This document shows positions 8,329 through 36,673 of a stretch of 42,875 nt of DNA, one piece after another (positions within the stretch are counted from its first letter, which is position 1; every line of letters begins with the position of its first letter). The DNA comes from Chitinophaga pinensis (GTDB lineage: Bacteria > Bacteroidota > Bacteroidia > UKL13-3): positions 1-42,875 of the forward strand of contig CAMDHZ010000024.1 in NCBI GenBank assembly GCA_945898275.1, given 5' to 3'. The position numbers and the translations under genes are program-made. The notes beneath the pieces were generated by a model. That model was not told where the DNA came from. It ran no database searches and saw nothing but the letters and a program-made list of their open reading frames with translations.

Positions 8329-8329
8329 G

Positions 8330-8569
8330 TCACAAATCAACTTTACATTTATCTAAAACATCATTAACCTTCAAGTAGCTCGTACAATCTAGAATATCTT
8401 CTGCATCTAACATGATGTTAAATGTATCCTCTAATGCTGTCGCAAGAGATAATTGCGCAACAGAATCCCAACTCTCTAAATTTTCTTTACTAAGGTCTTC
8501 ATTCACTTCATTTTCAGAAATGTTAAAGACCTCCACAAACACCTTAACTAGTTTCTCTTTCCTGTTCAT
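8330..8569 (-). CDS. Acyl carrier protein (ACP1)
   Basis: Small acidic protein of 79 residues with the carrier-protein signature ESWDSVAQLSL. Ser36 in the DSV motif is the predicted phosphopantetheine site. Helices before and after the motif follow the four-helix ACP pattern. The ATG at 8569 lies inside the end of the KAS III gene (26-base overlap), and the stop is one base from the SDR start. It differs from a housekeeping AcpP, which normally reads DSLDTVE around the serine, so it is a dedicated carrier. Likely partners are the ligase at 6195, KAS III at 8544 and the SDR at 7597. There are two different ACPs in the same run, the other at 12048-12284. Confidence 0.88.
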   Translation of the reverse strand: MNRKEKLVKVFVEVFNISENEVNEDLSKENLESWDSVAQLSLATALEDTFNIMLDAEDILDCTSYLKVNDVLDKCKVDL

Positions 8570-11995: not shown

Positions 11996-12047
11996 TTCCA
12001 ATCTCTTTGTTAATTATAAACGAGGACTAAACCAAATGATAATATTT

Positions 12048-20286: not shown

Positions 20287-21392
20287 CAAGCTTGGTCTTT
20301 TGCTGCAATGTGAAGCGACAATTCATCCGTTGACATAAATTCAATATCCGGCCACTTCTTTGTTGCGGATTGTAATAATTCTTTTAGAAGATTTAAATTT
20401 TTAGATCGGTTAGTTTCGTCAAGCTCGCCTAAAAAATTTAACCTATGAGAGGTGATGATTGCCGGGGTATTCCATTTAAACGCGCTCTCAATTTGTTTCA
20501 AGCAAATATCCAAGTAGTTGATTTTATTAGAAACACTTGGCTCAAACAGGCAATTTCTAACCAAATAGACTTGCTTATTTTTGTTTTTTTGACCAGTATA
20601 ATGGTATTGTGTTTTTTTCTCATTATCACTGGTTTTTATATTTTGTTTTTTAGATCCTTGTAAAAAGTTTATTCCAACTTCTTTTAATGCATCCTCAATG
20701 TTTGCATCCCAAGTGTAGTTGGGTGCAATAAATGAAACTGAATCTTTTTCAAATAACTCTGCAAACATATGGGCTGCCTCTTTCACCGTGCTAGAAGGAT
20801 CTAAGGCGCCTTGTGAAAAATCATTGCGTGCCAATGCTTCAACAATCTTTGAGTTTATTGCAAAAGTTTTAAACTCAAATGCCGCTCTATATGAACTATC
20901 GGATTTCTGCAGGGCATTCATCCATAAACCGGCATTGACATGCTCACGACCATGAAGTTGCGGCATAAATACATGCTTCTCTTTTCCTTCAAACCATAAT
21001 TTTAAGGATTGGGAATGCCTTGGATATCTCTTAAAGCTTACTTCTGCTTTCTCATAATGGTAGCTCATAAATCCACTTGATTCGATTTTGTCAAAATCAG
21101 GATTTGCCATAATACAGTTGGCAGTTAGTTTGGCAGGATTCCCATTTTTATCTTTTACACTGCTTAAAACTTCAAACAATCCGATTAAGTCATTTTCGCT
21201 TTCTAGCGAGTCATACTTTAAAAAGGAGTCGTTTCCATCAATCAAATTTTTATCTAGAAGTTGTTTATAAACCTTTTGTGACGGCATTCTTATAGATCCC
21301 CAATCATCCGATTCTATAACTATTATCTTTCTGTTGGTTTTAAATGCCAATGCATTCAAAACATTTCGCAATAATGCTGACGAAAAACTCAT
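20286..21392 (-). CDS. Divergent NodB-like (CE4) deacetylase-type protein, copy B
   Basis: The protein has 368 residues and is a paralogue of the gene at 21924-23102, with the same key positions. ESDDWGSIRMPS places two aspartates at 29-30 like the NodB TFDD motif, and PQLHGREH places His147 and His151 as an HxxxH pair. FIAPNYTWD and IITSHRLNF could be the later CE4 motifs. A NodB-like fold is therefore proposed, although overall similarity to classical CE4 enzymes is low. The start overlaps the acetyltransferase stop by four bases (ATGA). Likely role: deacylation or other hydrolysis of the glycan or a precursor. No signal peptide. The pairing of two copies around a single acetyltransferase is conspicuous. 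Confidence 0.68.
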   Translation of the reverse strand: MSFSSALLRNVLNALAFKTNRKIIVIESDDWGSIRMPSQKVYKQLLDKNLIDGNDSFLKYDSLESENDLIGLFEVLSSVKDKNGNPAKLTANCIMANPDFDKIESSGFMSYHYEKAEVSFKRYPRHSQSLKLWFEGKEKHVFMPQLHGREHVNAGLWMNALQKSDSSYRAAFEFKTFAINSKIVEALARNDFSQGALDPSSTVKEAAHMFAELFEKDSVSFIAPNYTWDANIEDALKEVGINFLQGSKKQNIKTSDNEKKTQYHYTGQKNKNKQVYLVRNCLFEPSVSNKINYLDICLKQIESAFKWNTPAIITSHRLNFLGELDETNRSKNLNLLKELLQSATKKWPDIEFMSTDELSLHIAAKDQA

Positions 21393-21919
21393 TGATTTTC
21401 TTTAAGCCTGCTTCCAATTAACTTGGCAGGGTTTCCGCCAATTATACTATAAGGAGGAAAGTCCTTAGTGACCACAGAACCCGCCCCTATTATAGTGCCC
21501 TCACTAATTTTTCTTCCCGGTAAAATGATAGAATGACTTCCAATCCACACATCATCCTCAATTATTGTTCTTTGTGCCAGCGATACCCCTTGTTTTAGCA
21601 TGGGTATGTCGGTTCGATCAAAATTATGCTTAGCATTATAAATCGTAACATGAGGACCCATCATCACAAAATTCCCTATATAAATGTCCTTTGGAACTTT
21701 ACAATTCCTCGCAATACTAGAATAGTCACCAATTTCAATTCCATTGCCCTTACCAAAATGCGCTCCTGGACCAATGTTCACTTTTTCGCCACATTTCTTA
21801 AAAATTCTTCGGCAGGTAACGTACCTAATCCATTCAAAAAAAGAACCCAAAATTGGAAATGTTGGTCCCGGAAGATGGCTAAGCACTGCATAAAAAAAGA
21901 AAAGCCTAATTGTCTTCAT
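21389..21919 (-). CDS. LbH-family O-acetyltransferase (WcaF/maltose O-acetyltransferase-like)
   Basis: The protein has 176 residues. A hydrophobic N-terminal segment precedes hexapeptide repeats (from about residue 48, with IGPGAHFGKGNGIEIGDYSS and IEDDVWIGSHSIILPG). The catalytic histidine lies in YNAKHNFDR, and the ending SIIGGNPAKLIGSR is typical of the family. It should transfer acetyl from acetyl-CoA to a sugar hydroxyl. It sits between the two NodB-like paralogues, four bases from the upstream one and overlapping the downstream one. The arrangement suggests acetylation and deacetylation of the same residue or adjacent positions. Confidence 0.85.
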   Translation of the reverse strand: MKTIRLFFFYAVLSHLPGPTFPILGSFFEWIRYVTCRRIFKKCGEKVNIGPGAHFGKGNGIEIGDYSSIARNCKVPKDIYIGNFVMMGPHVTIYNAKHNFDRTDIPMLKQGVSLAQRTIIEDDVWIGSHSIILPGRKISEGTIIGAGSVVTKDFPPYSIIGGNPAKLIGSRLKENQ

Positions 21920-21923
21920 TTAA

Positions 21924-23102
21924 CTATCGTTTATATTTTACATCATAATAGAACGATTTTGGATTTATGCCCAAAAAATATTTGGGTTTTGAGGCAATTT
22001 CATCACCCAATTGGTCGCTTGACATAAATTCAATTTCTGGATATACCCTAAGCATTTCACTTATGAGTTTATTAAGAATCTGTAAGGTATTTTCTCTGTT
22101 TTCTTTGACAATAGATCCAATATAATTGACCCGATGAGAGCTTATCACAAAAGGCTTTTTAGAAGCAAAGGCAATTTTCATTTCACCCATAACCCGGTTC
22201 ACCCAATCAAAACCCCAATCTCTACTTGGTTCAAAGGTTCCATTTCTTCTCCAATAAATTTGACCCAATTTATTTCTTGAACCTATCAATCTATTTCTTA
22301 TGGCAAATCTAGCCTCTGCATAAGTTAAAAATTGTGCCCCCATCTGATGAAACTTTATTCCGTTTTTTAAAAGAAACTCATCCATTTTATCACTTCGTAT
22401 GGATGTGGGAGCTACAAAAGATGTGGATCTAAAACCAAATAAATTCTCAAACAAATCCAATCCTTCGGCTATTACTTTTTCAAATCCAATTAATTCATTT
22501 GATTCTTCGTAATCAAAGGCAGCCAAGTATCCCATAAATCGTTTGGACGAAATCTGATTGGTTACAGCAAGAAGTGTTCTATAATCAAAGGCCAATTTTT
22601 CAAACTCATTGCCCGATCTGACTGCTTTTAACCATTCAAGGGGATTTAGGTGCTCCCTTCCATGAAATTGAGGCCACAATAACCTGCTTTCCATCCCTTT
22701 CTGCCAAATTTCAAAAGACTTAGCATGATTGGGATAATTTTTATACGTTTCCGTTATCGGCTCATAAAAATACTCTTGTAATCCTGCGTTTTCTATTTTC
22801 TCAAAATCAGGATTGGCAACTACCGCACATGCCGTAATACAGGGATGATTCCCTTTATGATCTTTGTGCTGCGTTAGTGCATGGAACAATTCACTCAAAT
22901 CATCCTCACTTTCTAAAGAATCGTATTTTGCAAATGAGCTATCACCAAAAGGTACTCCTTTTTCTATAAGTTTATTATATACCTCTAATGATGGCATAGA
23001 AATGCTTCCCCAATCATCCGATTCTATTACAACTATTTTCTTGTCAGTAACCCAACCTGGTGCATTCAATATGCTTTTTTTTATTTTATTTACAAAACTC
23101 AT
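21924..23102 (-). CDS. Divergent NodB-like (CE4) deacetylase-type protein, copy A
   Basis: The protein has 392 residues and shares with copy B: IESDDWGSISMPS (Asp29, Asp30), the KYDSLESEDDL block, VANPDFEKIE, and PQFHGREHLN (His147, His151 at identical positions). It also has SFVAPTSIR and VISSHRVNYIG as candidates for the later CE4 motifs. It is longer than copy B at the C-terminus. ATG 23102 overlaps the stop of the upstream epimerase by four bases. Conservation of both metal-motif histidines and aspartates in two diverged copies argues that they are active and different in substrate. A cytoplasmic location is inferred from the lack of a signal peptide. Confidence 0.68.
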   Translation of the reverse strand: MSFVNKIKKSILNAPGWVTDKKIVVIESDDWGSISMPSLEVYNKLIEKGVPFGDSSFAKYDSLESEDDLSELFHALTQHKDHKGNHPCITACAVVANPDFEKIENAGLQEYFYEPITETYKNYPNHAKSFEIWQKGMESRLLWPQFHGREHLNPLEWLKAVRSGNEFEKLAFDYRTLLAVTNQISSKRFMGYLAAFDYEESNELIGFEKVIAEGLDLFENLFGFRSTSFVAPTSIRSDKMDEFLLKNGIKFHQMGAQFLTYAEARFAIRNRLIGSRNKLGQIYWRRNGTFEPSRDWGFDWVNRVMGEMKIAFASKKPFVISSHRVNYIGSIVKENRENTLQILNKLISEMLRVYPEIEFMSSDQLGDEIASKPKYFLGINPKSFYYDVKYKR

Positions 23103-24662: not shown

Positions 24663-25937
24663 TTATTTAATAAGGTCAATAATAGGTGTTGAATTCTCGG
24701 TTAGGTTCGCGATAAAAATATTCCCCAAATAGGTAGTTAAAGTCAATACTTCAAAATCCGTTCTGAAAATCATATAACACTGCAATAAAAAAATGGGTAA
24801 ATAAATCCAGAGTAACCATTGGATTCCCCTTTTTCTTGCATTATCTCTCCATGCTAAACCGAGAAATACCAAGGTTGAAATTAATAAAAGCTTCACAAAT
24901 CGATTATTTACCAAACCCGCTTCATTACCTACTACAAACGTTAATACTCCCAAAACCAAGGATAAAACAAAAAAATAATTTGTGATTTTGGAGTAAACGA
25001 ACCGTTTGCCCATGATACTAAAAAATACCAATACCAATACTGCAAAATATAATGGTAACAGTTTTGACAATTTAACATTAATGTTTTTACTTTCCAAACT
25101 AACAGCCATATTGCTCACGTAAGTTTCTTTGGTGAATGTATCTACCCGATTTTCAATCGTACTGCCTTCTAGAATAGACAATTTCAATATATTTTCTGAA
25201 ATTATATTTGAAGCAGCGAATAACATTACAAAAACAACAATCACATATTTATTGCTTTTTAGCTTGCTCAACACTAAAGATACAGGAAATAATAGTACTA
25301 CAGGAATAAAGGACCAATGAATAAGAAAAGTTAGGCTATTTAAAACAATATATTTAACTCTACGCTGTTTTAAATAAAAGATTATCGTGTAAAAGAAAAA
25401 AAATGTGGCTAATGGAAATCTAACCGCATTGGCTCCTCCTGACAGGGGATAGATAAACAAAAAGCTCGCTAACAACACATAGAAAAAAAAATTTCTCTTT
25501 GGTGCAATTAAGTCGCGCACATTTAACAAAAAATATATCTCCCGAATAAAACCTACAACTACATAAAAGTAGATAAAACTTAATATACCAAAAAACAAAT
25601 GGGTATTTGCCGAAAACCTCGATATAAAATAAGTCATCGAAGATAAATAGATATCTGGATTTACCCCCTCAGTCACATAAGTACCAAGGATGCTAACTTT
25701 AAAATCACTCCAGCTAGCATTAGAGCTTTCTAGAAACCTATTGCCAATTCTGCTACCATCCATGCCAGATTTGGTAACCATGGTATAACCTATAAAAAAA
25801 CCAACTACCGAAAAACCAAAACGAGCAGTTTTAGAAGTAAAGTCTTTTAAAGAGAGAAACAATACCCCTAAAGGCCAAATTAAAAAAACAACAGAATTAA
25901 CTATGTAGTTAATTCTATTGTTAGCATATACCGCCAT
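24663..25937 (-). CDS. wzy: Multi-spanning Wzy/EpsG-like repeat-unit polymerase
   Basis: Integral membrane protein of 424 residues with about ten to twelve hydrophobic helices and a large loop after the first helices (SGMDGSRIGNRFLESS...VNPDIYLSS). The pattern with Tyr-rich, Phe-rich helices (FFFFYTIIFYLKQ) fits the EpsG/Wzy group. Such proteins join undecaprenyl-linked repeat units at the periplasmic face. No sequence motif proves the role; topology, size, uniqueness in the window and adjacency to Wzx support it. An O-antigen ligase is the main alternative. ATG 25937 shares one base with the upstream stop (TAATG). Confidence 0.76.
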   Translation of the reverse strand: MAVYANNRINYIVNSVVFLIWPLGVLFLSLKDFTSKTARFGFSVVGFFIGYTMVTKSGMDGSRIGNRFLESSNASWSDFKVSILGTYVTEGVNPDIYLSSMTYFISRFSANTHLFFGILSFIYFYVVVGFIREIYFLLNVRDLIAPKRNFFFYVLLASFLFIYPLSGGANAVRFPLATFFFFYTIIFYLKQRRVKYIVLNSLTFLIHWSFIPVVLLFPVSLVLSKLKSNKYVIVVFVMLFAASNIISENILKLSILEGSTIENRVDTFTKETYVSNMAVSLESKNINVKLSKLLPLYFAVLVLVFFSIMGKRFVYSKITNYFFVLSLVLGVLTFVVGNEAGLVNNRFVKLLLISTLVFLGLAWRDNARKRGIQWLLWIYLPIFLLQCYMIFRTDFEVLTLTTYLGNIFIANLTENSTPIIDLIK

Positions 25938-27007
25938 TAAAACAAAATTTCTTCAAACGAAACTATAGATTTCACGTGTGGGGTGGGATTTACAGTGTCA
26001 TATCTATCAAACCGGGGCATATAAGGCTTCGCAATTTCAAAAGTATAATAAAAATTACAGTCGGGATTATTGATAAACATAGAAGTAGAAATAGTAGAAA
26101 CAACAACGGAATTTTTTAACTGCATAATTAAAAATTCAGCAGGCACTTGCCCATCAATTACCTCCACCTTATCCACAAACTTTACCTTAACTTCATCAAT
26201 AAAATCTCGATAAGGTTTATAATTTATCGGATGTGATTTTAAATAAATCTTTTTATCAGGAAAAGATTTTAAAAGATAATCTATCATCAACTTTTCGAAC
26301 GTATTGTCGTCTCGCATCGATTGGCTTATGAAAAACACAGTCCCCTCAACCTCTTTCAGGATAAACCTATCCAACTTAAATACCTTATTCATCAACTCGA
26401 ACAACTGTGTTGATTTTTCAATTTCAATTTTTCGAAGCACCTTCTTATTCCAATTCTTATACTTTTCTGGAAAAGTAACGTAAACCTTAGAAACCCCTTT
26501 TAAAAAGGCATAACGATAGGCATTAATCGCATTAACAAGTGGATCCGCCTTATACCCATTTTTCTTCCACCAAATTCGCATTTCCAGTTCCATCTTCAAC
26601 TGGCCATAAGATCTAGACTTCATTGGATTGTATGCCTTCAAGCCATCTTGGTATAATCTTACCTCGGTTCCCTTTTTGTTTAATTGATAACTCAAAAGAC
26701 AGTTTAAGGGATCGTTTTCCTGAAAAATAATGAAGCAATCCCAATTTTTGGATAAAAGACTATTAACAAGTTCTTTGGTGGGGGCACTTAAGGCCTGCTT
26801 GAAATGGATATCGTCATTAAAATGAATGATGTCTAAACCAAGTCCGTCAAAATCAAATGGTCTATCCATTCGTTTATGCAACTTTTCATGTTTGATGACT
26901 AAAGTAATCTTATGCGTACTTAAATCGTAAACTTTATTTATGAATATCTCATTTAAGGTTAAGCTTAATTGATACTCGGTATAAACATTGAACAGTATAT
27001 TTTTCAT
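25937..27007 (-). CDS. Putative nonulosonate (sialyltransferase-like) glycosyltransferase
   Basis: The protein has 356 residues and no N-terminal signal or membrane segment. It shows the short motifs shared by bacterial sialyltransferases of the GT38/GT52/GT80/GT97 groups. A D/E-D/E-G-like motif reads YQDG (Asp121-Gly122), an HP motif is in YLKSHP (His259-Pro260), and a serine/threonine motif is in VVSTISTSMF (304-309). In the known enzymes these bind and activate CMP-sialic acid. A CMP-nonulosonate pathway is encoded next in the run (28533-36673), so transfer of pseudaminic-type sugar is a good inference. It overlaps the Wzx stop by four bases. Overall identity to named families could not be assessed. 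Confidence 0.6.
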   Translation of the reverse strand: MKNILFNVYTEYQLSLTLNEIFINKVYDLSTHKITLVIKHEKLHKRMDRPFDFDGLGLDIIHFNDDIHFKQALSAPTKELVNSLLSKNWDCFIIFQENDPLNCLLSYQLNKKGTEVRLYQDGLKAYNPMKSRSYGQLKMELEMRIWWKKNGYKADPLVNAINAYRYAFLKGVSKVYVTFPEKYKNWNKKVLRKIEIEKSTQLFELMNKVFKLDRFILKEVEGTVFFISQSMRDDNTFEKLMIDYLLKSFPDKKIYLKSHPINYKPYRDFIDEVKVKFVDKVEVIDGQVPAEFLIMQLKNSVVVSTISTSMFINNPDCNFYYTFEIAKPYMPRFDRYDTVNPTPHVKSIVSFEEILF

Positions 27008-28518
27008 TTTTTAATAAATACCTTGGCTATAGATAATTGCTCTTTTTTATCAAAACTAATAAAAAAAACCAAAAGTGAATACATTAAAACCACATAAATT
27101 AGGGTAATTGATGCTTTTATGTATTGATTATCAAAATATTCAAAGGGAATAAGCGAAGCGGAAAGAATTACTGCACCAATGGGCATTAATGTTTTCACAA
27201 AAATTTGCAAGAGGAAGTTAGAAACATCAAAGGAAACAAATTTTTTCAATAGAAATACCCTTACAAACAATGCCAAAAGCTCAAGCACTATGGCAACAAG
27301 GAAAATTGATTGCGGGGGATAATCCATTTTAAAAAACAAGTATCCAAGGGGTAAATTCAATAAAATTATGGTGCTAATCCAAACGCTGTACTCTTTAACT
27401 TTTCCTATGGCATTAAAAACCACTTGAAGCCCGCCTGATAAACTTGTTGTAAAGCTAAATAGGAGGATATATTTTGTAAATATTACGGTACTATTTGGAA
27501 TTGTCTTTAACCACAGATTCAAAATGAACTCAGCCTCCAATAAAAAGAAGAGGATAAAATAGGCAGTAGAAATAACTGATAATTTGGTCATAACGATTAC
27601 ATTATTTACCATCTGACTTTCCTCCTTACTGCCTGCATTTTTTAATATTCTAGGGGTTAATGCACCGGTAATTCCCTGAGATAAAATTCCTAAAGCAAAA
27701 TTTACTTGAGATGCTATACCGTAAGCTGCATTTTTAATTACCCCAAAAAATATGTTCAGCAAAACAGACACCCCTTGATTACGGCCCATCACTGCCAATG
27801 ATCCAAATATATTCCACCCCATAAAGCCCAACATGTTTTTCAAAATTGCTTTATCGATGTATTGCATAGAAAAAACCGCTTCTTTAAATCTTCTCGAAGT
27901 GTACCACCAGTTTATTCCCAAAACCAATAAAGCTGAGATTAACAAAAGTATTGTATAGAAAACAAGCTTATCAAGTTGATAGGAAAAATATTTTAAGATG
28001 AGAACAATAATAATTTTAAATAGGGTGCCTAAAATACCAAGGATAGCGTAGAGTAAAAAGTTCTCATGGGCTTTTACAACTCCTAGGTAAGGGGTAGCAA
28101 TAATAGAAATAACCGTTATGCCGCCCACTAAAAACAACAAAATTCTAGCCGCTGGAACTCTAGCAGGTGGTATATCTAAAAATCCCTCCACGGCCCACCA
28201 ACCAAAAAATATAATTACAAAAAATATAGCAAATGCGTATAAAAGATGAATCAGCATGGCATTTGAGAAAGCTTTTAACTGATTCTCAAATATTTTTTCT
28301 CCTAAGGCAAAAGCCACGTAACGTTGTGTAGTCATGGATAAACTCCAATTAACAAAGGTAAGGGCGCCCACAAAACCAACCATTAAGGTATAAAGTCCAT
28401 AATCTTCTACGCCTAATTCTTGCAAAATTACGGGGGTAATTCCAATTCCAATAACTGCTGCAAAGAGTTTTTGGAAAGAAATAGCAAATGAATTGAAAAG
28501 AAAACCTTTTTTTTTCAA
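27004..28518 (-). CDS. wzx: Wzx-type repeat-unit flippase
   Basis: Polytopic protein of 504 residues with about fourteen hydrophobic helices and the N-terminal FAAVIGIGITPVILQELGVEDYGLYTL, typical of the MATE/MVF-like Wzx group. It moves undecaprenyl-linked repeat units across the inner membrane. The only usable start is TTG 28518, directly followed by nine A residues (lysine codons) on the coding strand. There is no in-frame ATG for many codons after it. The start is 14 bases from the pseI stop. Pairs with the Wzy-like gene, indicating a Wzx/Wzy-dependent pathway together with Wza/Wzc. Confidence 0.88.
   Translation of the reverse strand: MKKKGFLFNSFAISFQKLFAAVIGIGITPVILQELGVEDYGLYTLMVGFVGALTFVNWSLSMTTQRYVAFALGEKIFENQLKAFSNAMLIHLLYAFAIFFVIIFFGWWAVEGFLDIPPARVPAARILLFLVGGITVISIIATPYLGVVKAHENFLLYAILGILGTLFKIIIVLILKYFSYQLDKLVFYTILLLISALLVLGINWWYTSRRFKEAVFSMQYIDKAILKNMLGFMGWNIFGSLAVMGRNQGVSVLLNIFFGVIKNAAYGIASQVNFALGILSQGITGALTPRILKNAGSKEESQMVNNVIVMTKLSVISTAYFILFFLLEAEFILNLWLKTIPNSTVIFTKYILLFSFTTSLSGGLQVVFNAIGKVKEYSVWISTIILLNLPLGYLFFKMDYPPQSIFLVAIVLELLALFVRVFLLKKFVSFDVSNFLLQIFVKTLMPIGAVILSASLIPFEYFDNQYIKASITLIYVVLMYSLLVFFISFDKKEQLSIAKVFIKK
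28507..28515 (-). repeat. Nine-base homopolymer at the start of wzx
   Basis: Nine consecutive T on the plus strand (A on the coding strand) lie immediately after the TTG start codon of wzx. Loss or gain of one base would shift the frame at the second codon. This is the typical setting for slippage-driven on/off switching, though the tract is short and lysine-rich starts are common in AT-rich genes. Confidence 0.6.
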
Positions 28519-28532
28519 CGGGGCAAAGAAAA

Positions 28533-29567
28533 TTAAATGAGGGTAAAATCCAATCTATCTCCCTTTTCTGCTGATCGTTTTGCAAATTGCCCAATAAAAT
28601 CATGATAGTATTTCGGATGCAAACCAAATCCTGGCCTGATACTTTTCACATGCTCCTCTGTAATAATTTCTCCAGCTTTAATATCTTTCACTACATACAG
28701 CGATCGTGAAAAATCTTTACCTTTTGCTTGTTTTTCTGTCAAATTATAATCCACAACCCCAATGGCTTTTTCTGCTTCCCGAACAGATCTTACCATATCA
28801 GTAAACTCCTGTTCATTCATCGAGAATGAAGCATCTGGTCCTCCAATGGAGCGGTCTAAAATAAAATGTTTTTCAATGATTTTTGCACCAAAGCAAGTGG
28901 CTACAACAGGCACAGTAGCTCCCATCGTATGATCTGAAAGCCCTGCAATAACTCCAAAACGCTCTGCAAAATCTTTCACCATCACCATTTTAGCCTCTTC
29001 AATAGGAGCAGGATAACTGGAAGTACACTTTAACAGGGCGATATCATTATTTCCCATTCTTCTGCAAGCATCTAATGCAAGCTCAATGTCCTCCATAGTG
29101 GAAATGCCCGTAGAGAGAATCATGGGCTTTCCTTTAGAGGCAATATATTCAATAAGAGGAATATCCGTGATTTCAAAGGAAGCAATTTTATATGCCGGAG
29201 CATTTAAGTTTTCTAAGAAATCAACAGCGGTTTTATCAAAAGGCGATGAAAAACAAATCAATCCTTGTTTTTCAGCCTCATCAAATAAAGCCTGATGCCA
29301 TTCCCAAGGAGTAAAGGCAGACTCATACAATTTATAATAGGTTTGACCGTCCCATATAGATCCCGATTTAATAATAAAATCATCTTTATCACAATCAATT
29401 GTTAAGGTATCTGCCGTGTACGTTTGTAATTTTATAGCGTTAGCGCCTGTTCTCTTCGCTGCCCTTATGGTTTCAAGAGCAGTTTCTAAACTCCCATTAT
29501 GATTGGCAGAAAGTTCTGCTATAATAAAAACACCATCGCTGCTTAGATCAAAAGTTCCTATTTTCAT
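28533..29567 (-). CDS. pseI: Pseudaminic acid synthase (NeuB family)
   Basis: From ATG 29567, adjacent to the upstream TAG (TAGAATG), the protein has 344 residues, the usual length. The open frame extends 24 codons upstream into the formyltransferase, but MKIGTFDLSSDGVFIIAELS is the familiar N-terminus. NeuB-domain blocks: SANHNGSLETALETI, IKLQTYTADTL, FSSPFDKTAVDFLE, ILSTGIST, and a C-terminal SAF antifreeze-like domain (FSRSLYVVKDIKAGEIIT). The combination KLYESAFTPWEWH is characteristic of PseI rather than NeuB or LegI. It condenses 6-deoxy-AltdiNAc with phosphoenolpyruvate. Expected partners PseB and PseC are 6 kb upstream. Confidence 0.9.
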   Translation of the reverse strand: MKIGTFDLSSDGVFIIAELSANHNGSLETALETIRAAKRTGANAIKLQTYTADTLTIDCDKDDFIIKSGSIWDGQTYYKLYESAFTPWEWHQALFDEAEKQGLICFSSPFDKTAVDFLENLNAPAYKIASFEITDIPLIEYIASKGKPMILSTGISTMEDIELALDACRRMGNNDIALLKCTSSYPAPIEEAKMVMVKDFAERFGVIAGLSDHTMGATVPVVATCFGAKIIEKHFILDRSIGGPDASFSMNEQEFTDMVRSVREAEKAIGVVDYNLTEKQAKGKDFSRSLYVVKDIKAGEIITEEHVKSIRPGFGLHPKYYHDFIGQFAKRSAEKGDRLDFTLI

Positions 29568-29568
29568 T

Positions 29569-30429
29569 CTATTCAAATTTTTCATTAAGCTCAACAACCA
29601 AGTGTGATTCTCTAATTTTGTCAATACATAATACAGCATTGCTGCATTTTACCAACAAAGGCGAGGTAGATAGTATTGTGCCATTTTCTGTTTCATAGTG
29701 AAACCCATAATCAGACTTTGATACCTTGTCTATGGTTACTTTTGTGTTTTGATAAAAACTGAAGGCTCCGGGATACGGAAAAGCTTGCGCTCTCACCCAA
29801 TTAATGATGCGTTCAACATTCCATTCCCAGTTAATCCTGCCATCTTCTGGGGTTCTTTTACCAAAATATGTGGCCTTTGTTTCATCTTGAATGGTTTGTG
29901 ATAGGATACCTGCTTTGTAGTCGCTAAAAACTTGTTCTATCAAAGGGATATAAAGATGTTTGTATTTTTCTAGAACAGTGGCACCCGTATCATTCTCCTC
30001 AATATCAACATGAATCTGATGCAAAATTGCCCCTGTGTCGCAGCCTTCATCTATTACATGTGCGGTAATACCTGTTTGCTTCTCATTGTTGATAATGGAC
30101 CAAACGTGAGGCGTTCTCCCTCTATACTTTGGTAATAATGAGCCATGAACATTAAAGCATAAGTCCCGTGCCAAATTAATGACCTTCTTTTCTATAATGA
30201 ACAAATAGTTTACGGAGGCAATAACATCACACTCCAGACCTACTAAAAATTGATTGATTTCCTCTTTTCTTGGATTTCCTGCATAAACCGGTATGTTAAC
30301 AGTCTCACACAATGAAATTATGCTTTTAGAGGCTTTATCGGTTAGCACAAAAGCAATGTTTACTTTAGACAAAAAATAAGTAAGAACCACTTCGCCAAGT
30401 CCTCCAGAAACAAGAAAAGCAACTCTCAT
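29569..30429 (-). CDS. Formyltransferase (10-formyl-THF-dependent, sugar N-formylation)
   Basis: The protein has 286 residues and the Formyl_trans_N core: NVHGSLLPKYRGRTPH gives catalytic Asn93 and His95, and DEGCDTGA gives Asp131. All three residues of the triad are intact. The C-terminal half (RTPEDGRINW, then a small barrel) resembles FMT/ArnA C-domains. Sugar N-formyltransferases of this kind act on dTDP- or UDP-amino sugars in O-antigen pathways. Here it lies directly upstream of pseI, where a formyl group on the 4-amino of the altrosamine precursor (C7 of pseudaminic acid) is plausible. It overlaps the upstream GNAT by four bases (ATGA). Confidence 0.86.
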   Translation of the reverse strand: MRVAFLVSGGLGEVVLTYFLSKVNIAFVLTDKASKSIISLCETVNIPVYAGNPRKEEINQFLVGLECDVIASVNYLFIIEKKVINLARDLCFNVHGSLLPKYRGRTPHVWSIINNEKQTGITAHVIDEGCDTGAILHQIHVDIEENDTGATVLEKYKHLYIPLIEQVFSDYKAGILSQTIQDETKATYFGKRTPEDGRINWEWNVERIINWVRAQAFPYPGAFSFYQNTKVTIDKVSKSDYGFHYETENGTILSTSPLLVKCSNAVLCIDKIRESHLVVELNEKFE

Positions 30430-30977
30430 TTATTAAGCAACGAATAAATAACCACGTCTTTATACGCTCCATTGTAAACACAATGTTCATTGAGCCTTGC
30501 ATCTAAAAAATAATCCGCTTGTTCAAGCGCTGCATATAAGTGAGGTCTCAGATCAAAAGCATACACATACAGTTTATGTAAACCTAATTCTATGAATGCA
30601 ATCTGTCTAAGAAGGCTTGCGTAGCTAATCCAAAGTTTACTGAAGTGCTGTTTCTCTAACTCTGTATTCATGATGAAAGACACCTCGGCATTCTTGTCTA
30701 TCCAATTGATATGCACCAAACCGCCATAACCAATACAAACGCCATCTTCTAAAAATGAAAATAATATTTGATTGGGCTGTTCTTGGTCAAAGAGTTTTGC
30801 CACTACATTTTCAAAATAGGCATCTTGGTCTTCTTGAGTCAAGGGCTTTGCCTGTCTAAGGTGGTAAATTTGCTCGTTACGCCATTTCATAATGTCGTAG
30901 CGGTCTTCCAATCGGATAGGAACTAATGCGAACCGTCCATTTGAAAAAAGTTGCTTATTTAAACACTTATATTCCAA
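30426..30977 (-). CDS. GNAT N-acetyltransferase, PseH-like candidate 1
   Basis: The GNAT has 183 residues and the RimJ/RimL layout: RFALVPIRLEDRYDIMKWRN, CIGYGGLVHINW (beta-bulge strand), AEVSFIMN, then the acetyl-CoA region and LYVYAFDLRPHLYAALEQA. The open frame begins at a TTG (30977), 7 bases after the upstream stop; the next ATG is at residue 29. Its size and neighbourhood fit PseH, which acetylates the 4-amino group of the UDP-altrosamine intermediate. A second GNAT (33915-34460) is an equal candidate for that step. With a formyltransferase present, one GNAT may act at another nitrogen. Confidence 0.78.
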   Translation of the reverse strand: MEYKCLNKQLFSNGRFALVPIRLEDRYDIMKWRNEQIYHLRQAKPLTQEDQDAYFENVVAKLFDQEQPNQILFSFLEDGVCIGYGGLVHINWIDKNAEVSFIMNTELEKQHFSKLWISYASLLRQIAFIELGLHKLYVYAFDLRPHLYAALEQADYFLDARLNEHCVYNGAYKDVVIYSLLNK

Positions 30978-30984
30978 AACAGAA

Positions 30985-32292
30985 TTAATTGAGTCGTTTA
31001 AATCCTGAATGACAAACAGGACCTTCTAATAACTTATTGACATCCTCTGCTCCTTGTACACATTGAGCTATTGTTTTATAAACCTCATTTAGGTTATCAA
31101 AGTAACGATCAAAATAAACATCTTCATGAGCGGTAGATGCATAAAAATTGGTGCTTGCCAAAAACCCTCTCTTTAACATTTCTTGTGTTAAGAGCGTTTT
31201 GTATTTTAAAGCATCAGGATAATTAAAGCTGTAAGTGGAAAGTGATGGTATTCCTGAAATGGAAATTTCTAAGCCATTCTCATCAGCAATTCTTTGCCAG
31301 CCTTCTTGCATTTTTCTTCCTTTCAGAGTAATAATTTCCCAAGATTTTACTCGCTCCATTACCTCCAATGTTCTTAGAGCTGCTGTAGGGCCTATTCGTT
31401 CTGTCCAAAAAGTACTACTAATAAATGTCTTTTGCGCAGCTTCCATTACTGAGCGTTTTCCAACTACAGCTGTAAGTGCATATCCATTTCCAATGGTCTT
31501 TCCAAACATAGCCAAATCAGGTTCCACTCCATATTTTTTATAAATTCCTCCGAAGGTTTCTCTAAATCCGGAGGTACATTCATCAAATACCAACACAATA
31601 TTTTTTTGGGTAGCCAAGTCCCTTACTTTTTGCAAAAAATTATCTTCAGGTCCAAAATTTCTTACTACCTCCATTTTGATAACGCCAATATTGTTTTCAC
31701 TAACTATTTTTTCCAATTCAAGAAAGTTATTGTAGTGAAATGGAAATACGGTATTCTTTAGATTTTTGGGTACCCCTGCTGGGTCAAGTCCGGGAAGCAA
31801 ATGTCCTGATAATCCATCCCCATCATTATGATTGGTAGAAAGATACCAATCATGCCATCCATGATAACCGCAGATTGCAACTTGATCTTTTCCTGATGCC
31901 GCCCGAGCTATTCGAATAGCGATGGCATTCGCTTCACCTCCGCTTCTTGCAAAGCGCACCATATCCGCCCATGGATTGATTTCTACTAGTTTTTCTGCTA
32001 AATAAACTTCTTCAGGACAAGAGAAAGTGCTCATGTTTCCTTTACGTACTGTTTCCATAACAGCAGCATCCACTTCCTCATTTCCATAACCTAGCGTATT
32101 TGTTCCAATGCCCATAATAGACATATCTGTATAGGTCTTTCCATCCAAATCTGTTACAAGACATCCTTTGGCCTCTGAGAAATAAGAAGGCCATTGGTCC
32201 GGTAAAAACATTTCAGGTCTTTTTGACAACAACATGGTTCCACCTGGAATCAGTTGCTTCGCTTTTTTATATAAATCTTGTCCAGTTCCCAT
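30985..32292 (-). CDS. Class III PLP aminotransferase (glutamate-1-semialdehyde aminomutase-like)
   Basis: The protein has 435 residues and a complete aminotransferase class III pattern: FARSGGEANAIAIRIAR, GYHGWHDWY, DECTSGFRETFGG with Asp237 and the PLP lysine Lys265 in FGKTIGNGYAL. Its N-terminus (LYKKAKQLIPGGTML) matches the GSA-aminomutase subfamily, but the gene sits inside a nonulosonate cluster rather than with heme genes. It could transaminate a keto or aldehyde carbon of a sugar intermediate. This class is often found beside SpsF-type cytidylyltransferases; its reaction there is not established to my knowledge. ATG 32292 shares one base with the upstream stop. Confidence 0.85.
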   Translation of the reverse strand: MGTGQDLYKKAKQLIPGGTMLLSKRPEMFLPDQWPSYFSEAKGCLVTDLDGKTYTDMSIMGIGTNTLGYGNEEVDAAVMETVRKGNMSTFSCPEEVYLAEKLVEINPWADMVRFARSGGEANAIAIRIARAASGKDQVAICGYHGWHDWYLSTNHNDGDGLSGHLLPGLDPAGVPKNLKNTVFPFHYNNFLELEKIVSENNIGVIKMEVVRNFGPEDNFLQKVRDLATQKNIVLVFDECTSGFRETFGGIYKKYGVEPDLAMFGKTIGNGYALTAVVGKRSVMEAAQKTFISSTFWTERIGPTAALRTLEVMERVKSWEIITLKGRKMQEGWQRIADENGLEISISGIPSLSTYSFNYPDALKYKTLLTQEMLKRGFLASTNFYASTAHEDVYFDRYFDNLNEVYKTIAQCVQGAEDVNKLLEGPVCHSGFKRLN

Positions 32293-33056
32293 TATTGTAT
32301 TGATTTATCGTTGTTTAATGATTTTAAATAACCTTCGTTACGTACAATATCTTGATTGGTAAATTCATGGATATTGTTGATAATATACATAGTGTAATCC
32401 ATCCAAGAGGCTTCTACCCCTAATTTGGCTACAAGCAACTTAATGGTGTCTAAATCCTTTGGTTCATCAACGGTCATTCTAATATGATTGTAATTTTCAG
32501 GTGCTTGAAAATGTACGGCTTTAAATAAATTACCCCCTTTGATATCCGAATTATTTCTTATATAGGGTGTTACATGTTCTCTTTCAGAAGGCAATTTAGC
32601 CTCCTTCCAGGCTTTTTCTAATGATTTGAAAGTAAATACTTCAACATCTTGGCCATCTGGGAATTCCTCTATAAGTATATTAGCGACATAATCAGCATTA
32701 GATTCAATCAGAAATTTAACTACTTGGTCAATTAAAATAGGATCTAACAAAGGACAATCTGATGTTACACGTACCACGTAATCAGGACGAAATGGCAAGG
32801 CTGCTTGATAAAAACGATCCAAAACGTCATTCAAACTTCCTTGAAAAGTATTTACATCAACTTTTTTTGCAATATCTATGATTACTTCAGCACCATTTTC
32901 ATGTGTAGTGGCAACACAAAAATCAGTAACCAATTGAGCTTTTTTTACGCGCTCCAAATGCAATCCCAATAAGGTTGTATGAGCCAAACCCTGAGTTACT
33001 TTGTTAGGAAATCGTGTACTTCCTACTCTCGCCTGTGTAATCAATAAAATTTTCAT
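32292..33056 (-). CDS. spsF: SpsF-type CMP-sugar (nonulosonate) cytidylyltransferase
   Basis: From ATG 33056, which overlaps the upstream stop by four bases, the protein has 254 residues; ATG 33065 would add three. It belongs to the CTP_transf_3 group with the SpsF-like N-terminus LLITQARVGSTRFPNKV, then RVTSDCPLLDP and MTVDEPKDLDTI. The sequence differs from classical PseF/NeuA (which open with IPARGGSK). It is the only cytidylyltransferase in the window and therefore the likely enzyme making the CMP-nonulosonate. Co-transcribed with the aldo/keto reductase and the class III aminotransferase. Confidence 0.8.
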   Translation of the reverse strand: MKILLITQARVGSTRFPNKVTQGLAHTTLLGLHLERVKKAQLVTDFCVATTHENGAEVIIDIAKKVDVNTFQGSLNDVLDRFYQAALPFRPDYVVRVTSDCPLLDPILIDQVVKFLIESNADYVANILIEEFPDGQDVEVFTFKSLEKAWKEAKLPSEREHVTPYIRNNSDIKGGNLFKAVHFQAPENYNHIRMTVDEPKDLDTIKLLVAKLGVEASWMDYTMYIINNIHEFTNQDIVRNEGYLKSLNNDKSIQ

Positions 33057-33925
33057 TGGTGCCATATAGCAGGGTTTAATAATTCTGATTCATTTACTAC
33101 TATACTATCAATAGCATTAAACACATCCTTTGAAACGTTCAAATGCATGGTTTCTAAATTGGTTTTTAATTGTTTTGATGAGTCCACACCAATTAAAACC
33201 CCATCAATATAATCTCTGCTCATTACATATTGAAGTGCTAAAGCTTCTTTAGAAATTTTAAAATCATTTGTTAGTTCATCTAGTTTTTTGAGATATTTCT
33301 CCAAAGGTTTTAATTTTGATGGAATGTTGTTTAAATTCATAAAAAACAAGCCTTGAAGAAATACAGATCTAGTATGTGTTTCTATTCCTTTTTCTTTAAG
33401 TTTAACCATTACATCACCCCTCAAATTATAATTGTCTAATGCATTGAATGGTGCTTGAATCACATTAAAAATACCCAAATCACATACTTCATTCATTTGT
33501 TCATTGGTATACAAAGAAATGCCAAGTTTTAAAAACTTCTTACCCTTGTGCTCCAATAAGGCATCCAATTCTTTAGTATTTGTATTCTTAAAATCATCAA
33601 AATTGTGAAACATGATTGTATCTACACAATCTACCTTTAATTTACCTAGTGAATGATTAAGAGAATCCATCATACTTAATCCATTCTTTAGACTGAATTT
33701 TGTGATAACTCTAAAGTCTTTTGCATGACCACATAATTCAAAATAATTCCCTATTCGTTCTTCCGAGGTTCCATAAGCAGCAGCAGTATCTAAAGTTGAG
33801 ATGTTGGATTCTTTACATAAATCTAAAATCTCAATTACCTCAGCTTCATGAATCTGTCCATCTGAATTATTAATTCCATAATTCAAACCAAACTGTACTG
33901 TACCTAAAATAATTTTACTTTTCAT
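33053..33925 (-). CDS. Aldo/keto reductase
   Basis: The protein has 290 residues with the AKR catalytic tetrad visible: Asp46 and Tyr51 in STLDTAAAYG, Lys76 in VITKF and His107 in IMFHNF. It opens with KIILGTVQFGLNYG and ends with the NADPH-binding region. It should reduce or oxidise a carbonyl of a sugar or related small molecule. It overlaps the GNAT upstream by 11 bases and the SpsF gene downstream by four. Aldo/keto reductases appear beside SpsF-like genes in several nonulosonate clusters, yet classical pseudaminic acid synthesis has no need of one, so the gene hints at a modified end product or precursor. Confidence 0.85.
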   Translation of the reverse strand: MKSKIILGTVQFGLNYGINNSDGQIHEAEVIEILDLCKESNISTLDTAAAYGTSEERIGNYFELCGHAKDFRVITKFSLKNGLSMMDSLNHSLGKLKVDCVDTIMFHNFDDFKNTNTKELDALLEHKGKKFLKLGISLYTNEQMNEVCDLGIFNVIQAPFNALDNYNLRGDVMVKLKEKGIETHTRSVFLQGLFFMNLNNIPSKLKPLEKYLKKLDELTNDFKISKEALALQYVMSRDYIDGVLIGVDSSKQLKTNLETMHLNVSKDVFNAIDSIVVNESELLNPAIWHQ

Positions 33926-34460
33926 ATAAAGGGTTAAAAATGGCCATTCTTAAAATATCATCATACCCATCAATCGTTTCAACATGATTTCTAAAACGAC
34001 CCTCTTCAATAAATCCAATCTTTCTGTAAAGTTCAACCGCAGAAATATTTTTAGCATGAACTCCAAGATTTACTTTCCTCAAATCAAGTATTTCCGAAAA
34101 ACAATAATTAATTACTGCAATACTAGCTTCTTTAGCATATCCCTTTCCCCATTCAGTAGGATCACCCATCATTATTCCATATTCTGCATATCTATGCTTC
34201 TTATTTATTGGATCAATTTTTATATTTCCGATGTGTTTATTTGAACTTTTCAAATGAATTGCCCAAAAAAGAATATTAGAGGCCTCTACTTCCTTTAAAA
34301 AATCATGTAGCTTTTCTAATGTATAATCACCTCCTGACTCCAAATATTTATTTACTTGAGGATTATTCATCCAACTTATATAATTATCGGAACAATGAAC
34401 TAACCCTAAGGGGATTAGATTCAATCTTTCGGAAACTAATGTAGGCGCCTTAACTTCCAT
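33915..34460 (-). CDS. GNAT N-acetyltransferase, PseH-like candidate 2
   Basis: From ATG 34460, inside the pseC end with an 11-base overlap, the protein has 181 residues; the longer frame starts at a TTG. RimJ/RimL-like GNAT: SERLNLIPLG, HIGNIKIDPI, the acetyl-CoA loop EWGKGYAKEA, and LYRKIGFIEEGRFRNHV. It directly follows pseC in the run, the position where PseH would be expected. Probable role: acetylation of the 4-amino group of UDP-4-amino-4,6-dideoxy-AltNAc. If the formyltransferase takes that position, this enzyme may act elsewhere. Confidence 0.8.
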   Translation of the reverse strand: MEVKAPTLVSERLNLIPLGLVHCSDNYISWMNNPQVNKYLESGGDYTLEKLHDFLKEVEASNILFWAIHLKSSNKHIGNIKIDPINKKHRYAEYGIMMGDPTEWGKGYAKEASIAVINYCFSEILDLRKVNLGVHAKNISAVELYRKIGFIEEGRFRNHVETIDGYDDILRMAIFNPLYEK

Positions 34461-35658
34461 AAAATGAAATAATTCTTTCAATTACATAATGTAACTCATC
34501 ATTACTAATTGTAGGATACATAGGCAAACTAATACATTTAGCATAATAGGATTCTGCTTTGGGCATATCGCCTTCCTTCCATCCAAATTGTCTGTAATAA
34601 GGCATTAAATGCGTTGGGATATAATGAATCTGAGCAAAAATTTGATGCTCCCTCAAATAGTTATACAATCCCAACCTGTTTTCAACTTCTAAAACATATA
34701 GATGATAGGCATGACCTTCAACCACTCCAGATTGTCCCTTCACAAAGGACTTCCCTTGAAAAGCTTTTTGATAAATAGCTGCAATTTTTCGTCTTTTTTG
34801 AAGACCTTCATCCGCTCTTTTCAATTGACTAAGCCCTAAAGCAGCCTGAAAATCAGTGATACGGTAATTATAACCTAAAATCTGCATTTCCATGTACCAT
34901 GCTGGGTAATCTATCTCCTGCTCACCGCTAACCGCTAACTGCTCACCGCAAGCAAATTCCACAGAATTCTGATACAGCGCATCATTTTTTGTTATTCCAT
35001 GCGTTCTTAGCATCATCAAATTATGATATAATTCCTCATTGTTAGTAGTTATCATACCGCCTTCACCTGATGCAATGTGCTTTACAGGGTGAAATGAAAA
35101 AATGGCTAAATCAGCAAAATTGCCATTTCCACAGTGCTGTTTATTACCATTACTATCAATAAAGTATCCACCCGGTGAATGACAAGAATCTTGAATAATC
35201 CAACAGCCAAATTCATCAGCTAAAGCTCTAAATGCTTCTAAATCAACAGCACGTCCTGCAAAATCTACAGGTATAATACCTTGATAGGTTCCTTTTGGCG
35301 AAGATTCAAGCAACTTTCTAACGGCATGAATATCCAATAAATAGGTATCAGGATCAATATCAGCAAAAACAACCTCACCACCACAATAGCGAACACAATT
35401 AGCTGATGCAGCAAAAGTGATAGGAGTAGTAATGACTTTATCTCCAGGTTTTACACCTAAGGCTAGTGCATTCAAATGCAATGCAGCAGTACCATTGGCC
35501 ACCGCAACAGCATATTTACAACCAATATATTCCGCAAAAGCTTTTTCAAACTCAAGAATCTTAGGACCCTGCGTGAGATAATCTGATTTTAAAGTTTCTA
35601 CTACAGCTTGGATATCTTCTTCTGTAATATGCTGTCTTCCGTAGGGTATTGCTTTCAT
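34450..35658 (-). CDS. pseC: UDP-4-amino-4,6-dideoxy-L-AltNAc transaminase (DegT family)
   Basis: From ATG 35658 the protein has 402 residues; the frame extends ten codons upstream into pseB without a better start. DegT/DnrJ/EryC1 family signatures: MKAIPYGRQHITEEDIQAV, YLTQGPKILEFE, NGTAALHLNALAL, QDSCHSPGG, the PLP lysine Lys193 in SFHPVKHIASGEGG, and YNYRITDFQAALG. The YLTQGP and HPVK patterns are typical of PseC. It transfers an amino group from glutamate to C4 of the keto intermediate made by PseB, which is encoded four bases upstream. Residues about 237-247 are encoded by a heptanucleotide tandem repeat and look like an extra loop before the conserved WYMEMQ block. Confidence 0.9.
   Translation of the reverse strand: MKAIPYGRQHITEEDIQAVVETLKSDYLTQGPKILEFEKAFAEYIGCKYAVAVANGTAALHLNALALGVKPGDKVITTPITFAASANCVRYCGGEVVFADIDPDTYLLDIHAVRKLLESSPKGTYQGIIPVDFAGRAVDLEAFRALADEFGCWIIQDSCHSPGGYFIDSNGNKQHCGNGNFADLAIFSFHPVKHIASGEGGMITTNNEELYHNLMMLRTHGITKNDALYQNSVEFACGEQLAVSGEQEIDYPAWYMEMQILGYNYRITDFQAALGLSQLKRADEGLQKRRKIAAIYQKAFQGKSFVKGQSGVVEGHAYHLYVLEVENRLGLYNYLREHQIFAQIHYIPTHLMPYYRQFGWKEGDMPKAESYYAKCISLPMYPTISNDELHYVIERIISFYGS
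34918..34949 (-). repeat. Heptanucleotide tandem repeat inside pseC
   Basis: On the coding strand four heptamers of the form GCRGTKA (GCGGTGA, GCAGTTA, GCGGTTA, GCGGTGA) plus GCAG run in tandem. They code a short stretch (around CGEQLAVSGEQ) not expected in PseC proteins. Such heptamer arrays resemble short tandemly repeated repetitive sequences known from cyanobacteria and seen in other AT-rich genomes. The reading frame stays open across it. Confidence 0.75.
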
Positions 35659-35662
35659 AAAG

Positions 35663-36673
35663 CTATATTTCAAAAGTTGAGTCAACATGTTCTTTAATCA
35701 ACGCTCTTAGTCCCTCAACGGTTTCCCATTCGCTATTTTCACCTGAATTATATGCGAAACCTACAGGAACTTTAACAGCATTGTGTTGTCCTATAAAATC
35801 TTCTAGTGACCAATTATGCGAGGATGGTAAAATGGTATAGTACTTACCTAAATCATAAGTATAATAAGAATCCGATGGCGTAATCATTTCTTCGTGTACC
35901 TTTTCACCAGGTCTAATGCCTACTACTTTATGCTCACACTCAGGTGCAATAGCTTCTGCAACGTCTAGAATCCGATAAGAAGGTATTTTAGGAATAAAAA
36001 TTTCCCCTCCCCATGCATGAAATAAAGCATGCATTACCATATCAACTCCTCCTTGTAATGAAATATTAAATCTAGTCATCTCAGGGTCTGTGATAGGTAA
36101 AACACCTTCTTTCTTTTTATTGATGAAAAATGGAATTACTGAACCATTAGAGCCCATCACATTTCCATATCTAACCACACTAAAGCGAATAGGATTCCAA
36201 CCTTTGATGTTATTCGCAGCAACAAACAATTTATCAGAGGCCAACTTAGTAGCACCATATAAATTAATAGGCGCACAAGCTTTGTCAGTTGACAGGGCAA
36301 CTACTCTTTCAACGTTAGTTTGTAAACAGGCATCAATCACATTTCGTGCGCCATCAATGTTTGTTTTAACACATTCCTCAGGATTGTACTCTGCAATAGG
36401 AACATGTTTCATTGCAGCAGCATGAATTACGTAATCGACATCTTTGAAAGCTCTTATTAATCGCTCTTTATCTCGAACATCGCCAATAAAAAATCTTATC
36501 TGAGGGTATTTTTCTTGAGGATAATCTTGAGACATTTGAAATTGCTTTTGCTCATCTCTTGAAAAAATAATGAGTTTTCTTATTTCAGAATGATGAGACA
36601 GAATATGGCTTGTAAGTGCCTTACCTAATGAACCTGTCCCTCCAGTAATTAATACAGATTTACCTTTCAGCAT
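35663..36673 (-). CDS. pseB: UDP-GlcNAc 4,6-dehydratase (inverting, 5-epimerising)
   Basis: The protein has 336 residues and GGTGSLG (11-17) for NAD(P), ALSTDKACAP with Thr129-Asp130-Lys131, and the catalytic Tyr139 and Lys143 in NLYGATK. A tyrosine there and the ending region (IRPGEKVHEEM) mark the PseB/FlaA1 short-chain group. It converts UDP-GlcNAc to UDP-2-acetamido-2,6-dideoxy-beta-L-arabino-hexos-4-ulose, the first step to pseudaminic acid. ATG 36673 is 11 bases from the stop of the second dehydratase gene. The usual TDKAANP reads TDKACAP. Confidence 0.92.
   Translation of the reverse strand: MLKGKSVLITGGTGSLGKALTSHILSHHSEIRKLIIFSRDEQKQFQMSQDYPQEKYPQIRFFIGDVRDKERLIRAFKDVDYVIHAAAMKHVPIAEYNPEECVKTNIDGARNVIDACLQTNVERVVALSTDKACAPINLYGATKLASDKLFVAANNIKGWNPIRFSVVRYGNVMGSNGSVIPFFINKKKEGVLPITDPEMTRFNISLQGGVDMVMHALFHAWGGEIFIPKIPSYRILDVAEAIAPECEHKVVGIRPGEKVHEEMITPSDSYYTYDLGKYYTILPSSHNWSLEDFIGQHNAVKVPVGFAYNSGENSEWETVEGLRALIKEHVDSTFEI

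Follow-up and report, generated by a model that had tools for sequence, protein, structure and literature searches.

The 42,875-nucleotide stretch of DNA analysed here (contig CAMDHZ010000024.1 of the Chitinophaga pinensis assembly GCA_945898275.1, called the window below) contains a polysaccharide locus in which an open reading frame (ORF) of 356 amino acids with an ATG start lies between the genes of a Wzx-type flippase and a Wzy-type polymerase (25937..27007; like all genes of the locus with coordinates in this and the next paragraph, on the minus strand). The protein under study encoded there is called P0001 and belongs to the polysialyltransferase family PF07388. Its start overlaps by four bases (ATGA) with the stop of the upstream flippase gene (MatE; 27004..28518; PF01554, 29.6 bits) and its stop by one base (TAATG) with the start of the downstream polymerase gene (EpsG family; 24663..25937; PF14897, 42.2 bits), which places P0001 within a compact operon.

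Beyond the flippase gene follow the genes of a pseudaminic acid (Pse)-type pathway, three of whose products exceed curated cut-offs: the pseudaminic acid synthase PseI (28533..29639; TIGR03586, 505.8 bits, cut-off 340.25), the aminotransferase PseC (34450..35688; TIGR03588, 457.1 bits, cut-off 423.5), and the dehydratase PseB (35663..36673; TIGR03589, 513.3 bits, cut-off 407.75). Between PseI and PseC are encoded a sugar N-formyltransferase (formyl_trans_N/C; 29569..30429) with a 51% identical counterpart in locus L096 of a congener (genome G002), a GNAT protein called GNAT1 (30426..30977) in the position held by PseG in L096, a class-III (GSA-type) aminotransferase (30985..32292; Pfam and NCBIfam scans), an SpsF/KdsB-like cytidylyltransferase proposed to be the CMP-nonulosonate synthetase (32292..33065; PF02348, 105.2 bits, with only 12.1 bits for the PseF family TIGR03584), an aldo/keto reductase (33053..33925; Pfam scan), and a PseH-like N-acetyltransferase (33915..34481; TIGR03585, 58.2 bits, under its cut-off of 93.1). 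The locus also encodes two GT4 proteins, and a match to GT2 stays below threshold. An initial annotation had placed the gene between Wzy and Wzx in a CMP-nonulosonate locus, and this holds. No PseG turned up in the window, nor in the genome of origin (98% complete; 106 contigs, 3.5 Mb) at E<=0.001. As the pathway is non-standard in lacking PseG and in having the additional aldo/keto reductase, aminotransferase and formyltransferase, its product may differ from plain CMP-Pse5Ac7Ac.

The same annotation had pointed out three short motifs, and all of them are present where it had seen them, including its Asp121 and His259: YQDG at residues 119-122 (codons at 26642..26653), YLKSHP at residues 255-260 (codons of K257 to P260 at 26228..26239), and STISTS at residues 304-309 (codons at 26081..26098). 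The first is the counterpart of the D/E-D/E-G motif, aligned with EDG or EEG of relatives; the second contains K257-S-H-P260, an instance of the CMP-binding motif (K/R)xHP that is also a feature of glycosyltransferase family GT38; the third, the Ser/Thr motif belonging to the donor domain, lines up with a Ser/Thr stretch in relatives. An additional element, P289-A-E291 (codons at 26135..26143), has the counterpart FPAED in the polysialyltransferase SiaD. A loose version of the motif triad (an acid followed by glycine, [KR]xHP 90-200 residues further on and [ST][ST] another 30-65 residues away) arose by chance in 34 of 20,000 shuffles of P0001, and among the 30 window proteins tested (50 ORFs of at least 100 amino acids are listed) it was present in P0001 alone.

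The Pfam family PF07388 (A-2_8-polyST, alpha-2,8-polysialyltransferase) matches residues 103-311 of P0001 with 48.3 bits (E 1.3e-12; gathering cut-off 23.3) and scores it at 46 bits in a profile search of its own genome. At E<=1, no other Pfam family was found, including PF07922 (GT52), and three NCBIfam matches were all far under their cut-offs. The view that P0001 fits no named family was therefore wrong, given a score at twice the cut-off. Since PF07388 claims the protein, "new" can only refer to a rare and divergent branch of the polysialyltransferase family, not to a new family. The idea of a nonulosonate transferase is very probably correct, judging from family, motif register, neighbourhood, and the equivalent gene of the congener. 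The family match, the motif register, the operon position, and the pathway genes are what can be read from the sequence.

We aligned P0001 with its relative L032 (26-29% identical) and eight further PF07388-type proteins. All ten rows share H259 and E291, conservation of G122, K257 and P260 is 90% or higher, and the position before the glycine holds D or E in nine. One of the eight, L035, scored 27.5 bits with PF07388 in the genome search yet had no Pfam match in hmmscan, and for another, L036, GT52 (44.5 bits) outscores PF07388 (23.8 bits). A profile built from the eight proteins alone, i.e., without P0001 and L032, gave P0001 30.1 bits (E 3.8e-6 when scaled to a set of 177,635 sequences) and the L032 gene (L003) 24.6 bits, and no other window protein or shuffled decoy exceeded 5 bits, so that P0001 is recognised by an independent profile of other family members. 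With hhalign, the pair of P0001 and L032 matched the eight proteins with a probability of 97.5% (E 8.7e-12, 287 columns) and all motifs in register; a comparison of two sequences with two others reached only 34.8%, with the HP and Ser/Thr motifs in register. Searched against the PDB, the ten-row profile found two SiaD polysialyltransferase sequences over nearly their full length (E 3.9e-14, 56 bits; next match at E 0.074) and aligned YQDG with LVEEG and STISTS with SIASTS of SiaD, while a profile of two L037 proteins did not reach SiaD. P0001 thus resembles the bacterial polysialyltransferases (PF07388, CAZy GT38; e.g., Mannheimia SiaD, 5wcn/5wc6, and NmB-polyST) in its over-cut-off family match and in the register of the acid-G, (K/R)xHP, PAE and Ser/Thr motifs, and differs from them by high sequence divergence and by Q-D-G in place of D/E-D/E-G. 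Known GT38 polysialyltransferases belong to polysialic acid capsule loci, whereas P0001 is accompanied by Wzx, Wzy and a Pse-type pathway.

The genomic surroundings of other family members provide a second line of evidence. Of 51 matches to NeuB we used 38, with the 13 at <=43.1 bits dropped, and found that a NeuB-family (NeuB/PseI) gene is no more than 10 kb away from 10 of 16 over-cut-off PF07388 genes (from 15 genomes sampled from the class) and no more than 25 kb away from 11; without the window, the 10-kb figure is 9 of 15. Two of the five genes without NeuB on their contig share a contig of 7 kb; the contigs of two more measure 10 kb and 23.6 kb, and the fifth gene is situated at the end of its contig. 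Proximity within 10 kb was seen for only 2 of 12 below-cut-off PF07388 matches and for 10 of 150 GT4 (PF00534) control genes of the same genomes (the best 150 of 256; Fisher p 3e-7). Because the GT4 controls are unmatched for locus type, this count speaks for an association with nonulosonate loci and not for an activity.

Gene names in these other loci were assigned by BLAST to window and labelled proteins and by reading of sequences. Pse-type neighbours are present in L035 (genome G093, with the order PseB-PseC...PseI-Wzx-PF07388 gene), L084 (G380), and L096. In the congener locus L096, the order is aldo/keto reductase, CMP-synthetase, GSA-type aminotransferase, PseG, formyltransferase, PseI, Wzx, GT4, PF07388 gene and Wzy, with PseB and PseC outside the 20 kb fetched. 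Its PF07388 protein (61.3 bits) and P0001 can barely be aligned (BLASTP E 0.18, over a piece spanning the HP motif, the P-x-E region and the Ser/Thr stretch), and they occupy equivalent slots. Leg-like or NeuC-containing neighbours (Leg, legionaminic acid) are found in L032, which adjoins a Leg-type pathway, as well as in L085, L090, and L038. L086 has a NeuB of another kind; in L088 and L089, a NeuB-type protein is encoded next to a HAD-like one; and in L087, PseA/HisH/HisF-like genes lie at the end of the contig. L034 has nothing of the sort except a CMP-transferase-like gene, and L037 has a KdsB-like gene; in L036, NeuB is 23 kb away, and in L091 nothing of nonulosonate kind was seen.

Taking these results together, we consider it likely that P0001 is a CMP-dependent nonulosonate transferase with a GT-B fold which adds the pseudaminate-type sugar of the locus to the Wzx/Wzy repeat unit. 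In the mechanism that we propose, its C-terminal domain would bind the CMP-activated sugar from the adjacent pathway, K257, H259, P260 and the Ser/Thr loop would surround the CMP, and D121 would serve as general base on the acceptor hydroxyl. The enzyme would add one residue to a lipid-linked repeat unit that the neighbouring Wzx would flip and Wzy would polymerise. We infer the identity of the donor, a single addition instead of polymerisation, the acceptor, inversion of configuration, and the catalytic roles.

These roles for D121 as base and for K257, H259 and P260 in holding CMP are suggested by analogy with enzymes from the literature. In NmB-polyST, E153A and G154A abolish activity, H278A or P279A alone leave less than 10%, and the double mutant has none (PMC2169525). 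In PmST1, D141 (the homologous second acid) was suggested as general base and H311 binds the CMP phosphate (PMC2169525). The first acid of D/E-D/E-G is directed into the protein core (PMC2169525), which explains how Q120 can be tolerated in P0001. The lysine or arginine of (K/R)xHP usually touches the cytosine (PMC12887879). The same short motifs and proposed catalysis are shared with the GT80 and GT52 sialyltransferases PmST1 and Lst, from which P0001 differs in having no match to GT52 or other sialyltransferase Pfam families at E<=1.

Predicted structures offer weak support for a GT-B domain with a CMP-type donor. For the P0001 model, the first Foldseek match in the PDB is the GT38 polysialyltransferase 5wcn (E 1.7e-3), which is also first in VIA (Z 9.8, root-mean-square deviation 8.0, 176 residues aligned) and followed there by GT80 sialyltransferases (Z 8.5-9.7). 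For the L032 model, VIA places the polysialyltransferase 5wc6 first (Z 10.5, root-mean-square deviation 3.0, 139 aligned), though it was not among the 50 rows listed by Foldseek alone. In these weak models, whose moderate confidence is confined to their C-terminal part, that part may have a GT-B-like form as in GT38 enzymes. GT52 or GT97 entries were not noticed among the listed matches, which excludes nothing. A fold other than GT-B, which the initial annotation had named as evidence against its proposal, was not what the models suggested, though with a mean predicted local distance difference test (pLDDT) score of 44 they make for a weak test. A fold search of BFVD with the same poor model was set aside (best E 1.2e-3, a CDP-glycerol glycerophosphotransferase).

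Several observations weigh against assigning P0001 in this way. The AlphaFold2 models, made from two-sequence input, are poor (mean pLDDT 44.4 for P0001 and 44.5 for L032), no Foldseek match of either reaches E 0.001, the UDP-GlcNAc 2-epimerase 4nes is close behind for P0001 (Z 8.9), and in VIA such epimerases tie with the best-ranked rows of either model (Z within 1). PDB searches with P0001 as single sequence or in the two-sequence profile found no relative, the SiaD match of the ten-row profile has a HMMER bias term of 34.9 bits, and the eight-protein profile without P0001 and L032 does not reach SiaD, so that the bridge to SiaD is made by these two sequences. The eight-protein profile also gives 17.6 bits to L005, 16.2 to L024, and 15.5 to L019, the latter two epimerase-like. 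P0001 has Q120-D121-G122 where the strict GT38 motif is D/E-D/E-G, with only the second acid and the glycine kept. The B. subtilis protein SpsB is dispensable for Leg transfer despite its DEG and HP motifs (PMC7439481). The family is not specific for Pse, with Leg- or other-type neighbours as frequent as Pse-type ones, and the donor of P0001 is therefore inferred from the locus in the window. Finally, none of the 13 genomes with the closest CMP-synthetase clusters (L069-L081) has a PF07388 gene over cut-off, so that the family does not invariably accompany this pathway.

An unlikely alternative is that the sugar transferred by P0001 is not the Pse-type product of the pathway and is instead another CMP-activated ulosonate, 3-deoxy-D-manno-octulosonic acid (Kdo) or one resembling it, perhaps in a retaining reaction like that of KpsC or KrkA. 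Sialyltransferases share the (K/R)xHP motif with retaining Kdo transferases (PMC12887879), KrkA (9yfz, Z 8.6) and KpsC (8fux, Z 8.3) are among the VIA matches of the P0001 model, and the two PF07388 proteins of genome G291 on the 7-kb contig without NeuB adjoin a KdsB-like gene, as read from sequence. However, PF05159 (Capsule_synth; KpsC/KpsS-type, GT118) has no match to P0001 at E<=1, a Pse-type pathway lies directly upstream in the operon, and PF07388 genes are concentrated near NeuB/PseI.

That P0001 is instead a true polymerase making a nonulosonate homopolymer, like the GT38 capsule polymerases, seems quite unlikely: its closest solved structure is indeed a polysialyltransferase, but the position between Wzx and Wzy and the two GT4 proteins and sub-threshold GT2 match of the locus suit a single addition within a heteropolymer unit. 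We regard it as improbable that P0001 is a GT-B enzyme for another nucleotide (UDP or CDP) and that its PF07388 score reflects generic GT-B similarity. Sub-cut-off matches to PF07388 do include six proteins read as UDP-GlcNAc 2-epimerases (L019-L021, L024-L026), so that weak scores mean little, and epimerases of this kind, along with TagF, are frequent among the model matches. Yet P0001 scores at twice the cut-off where these proteins stay under it, and [KR]xHP is present in none of the six as opposed to 15 of 16 over-cut-off proteins, P0001 included.

Finally, the notion that P0001 is no transferase and substitutes for the missing UDP-sugar hydrolase PseG (also of GT-B fold), which was found neither in the window nor in the genome, was rejected as highly improbable because L096 carries PseG together with a PF07388 gene in the same slot and because GNAT1 replaces PseG elsewhere. 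Across 18 compared loci (L082, without a Pse cluster, was left out), PseG occurs without GNAT1 in 10, GNAT1 without PseG in 6, and both together in none; the remaining two, which have neither, are a contig of 5 kb and a locus lacking PseI. Of the 16 PseI-bearing loci compared, 6 lack PseG, and each of these has a GNAT1-like protein (at only 27% identity in one case). GNAT1 may be part of a PseG-independent Pse route. In L076 and L078, GNAT1 is part of a protein of 343 or 353 amino acids.

Returning to P0001 as a pseudaminate-type transferase, few established pseudaminic acid transferases were found in the literature, where the search led to Maf proteins, FlmG, GtfS, and KpsS1 (GT118). KpsS1 of Acinetobacter baumannii, a retaining Pse5Ac7Ac transferase (PMC12887879), uses a CMP-Pse-type donor as proposed for P0001, but it is set apart by its description as KpsC/WbbB-related, given the lack of a Capsule_synth match in P0001. 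The Pse5Am7Gra transferase GtfS of Tannerella forsythia (PMC6120980, PMC6388019) is, by its description, similarly encoded in a Pse cluster with Wzx and reported to have D/E-D/E-G and HP motifs; unlike P0001, it has 445 amino acids and serves a protein O-glycan instead of a Wzy polymer. Candidate Pse/Leg transferases of T. forsythia also differ in being said to have a TagB domain (PMC7439481). We found no paper containing "PF07388" and no report of a GT38-type Pse transferase in a search that mostly lacked subscription journals.

More tentatively, PF07388 might serve the Wzx/Wzy loci of Bacteroidota as a general family of nonulosonate transferases, with P0001 a pseudaminyltransferase for a non-standard Pse donor that is N-formylated and/or aminated by the aldo/keto reductase and GSA-type aminotransferase; this combination of enzyme and donor is not reported in the literature searched. 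If P0001 is indeed a pseudaminate-type transferase, a sialyltransferase family best known for Neu5Ac polymers would extend to Pse-type sugars and single additions. Further candidates could then be sought by a simple rule, namely that a Wzx/Wzy locus has a PF07388 gene next to NeuB/PseI, and glycans containing rare nonulosonates could be made with the enzyme.

Close relatives of P0001 are rare: the order yielded them in 2 of 64 genomes and a sample of the class in 2 of 395 (its own genome in each count), and a two-row profile found only its own genome among 395 sampled from the phylum. PF07388 as a whole exceeds its cut-off in 4 of 64 genomes of the order and 15 of 395 of the class (16 genes). 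A search of genome contigs for P0001 returned only two loci, L032 and the identical copy L031, a 21-kb metagenome contig 100% identical to the window that may come from the same population. P0001 had no match in plasmid and phage records, viral contigs scanned with different queries contained no relative, and its best match among PHROGs phage families was one of unknown function (E 0.012). The genome of origin has a second NeuB-family gene (G000:C3:105075-105767, 182.3 bits) and no second PF07388 match.

The aldo/keto reductase, cytidylyltransferase and GSA-type aminotransferase are encountered as a trio in 14 of 17 non-window loci (exceptions L083, L035, and L084), which is no independent frequency because these loci were sampled by the cytidylyltransferase. 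In some related Pse clusters, two members of the trio lie within one long ORF. It is a possibility that the trio makes an amino-substituted nonulosonate by an oxidise-then-aminate route; Flexibacter maritimus is known to have an 8-amino nonulosonic acid (PMC3210612). The pairing of SpsF-like protein and aldo/keto reductase is not new because a Vibrio cluster has a fused gene of this kind (PMC7371886).

Seven downstream proteins scanned from the 13 related clusters comprise two Capsule_synth proteins, one below-cut-off PF07388 match, one asparagine synthase, and three with no match above cut-off. Downstream of PseI, L072 (16544-17839) and L076 (15932-17206; no Pfam match over cut-off) encode 44% identical proteins of 424-431 amino acids with RPHP followed by GPTST, possibly additional nonulosonate transferases.

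Elsewhere in the polysaccharide locus, the region 7597-12001 encodes two KAS III-like proteins, two short-chain dehydrogenases/reductases, and a PglD-like acyltransferase, which perhaps serve an unusual N-acyl group. Adjoining the Pse genes, a Polysacc_synt_2 protein (36685-37893) is 81% identical to the protein encoded first in the L032 cluster of Leg type. Two related proteins of 368 and 392 amino acids, one with a sub-threshold GH57 match, are encoded at 20286-23102, and pairs of their relatives are present in L032 and in L096.

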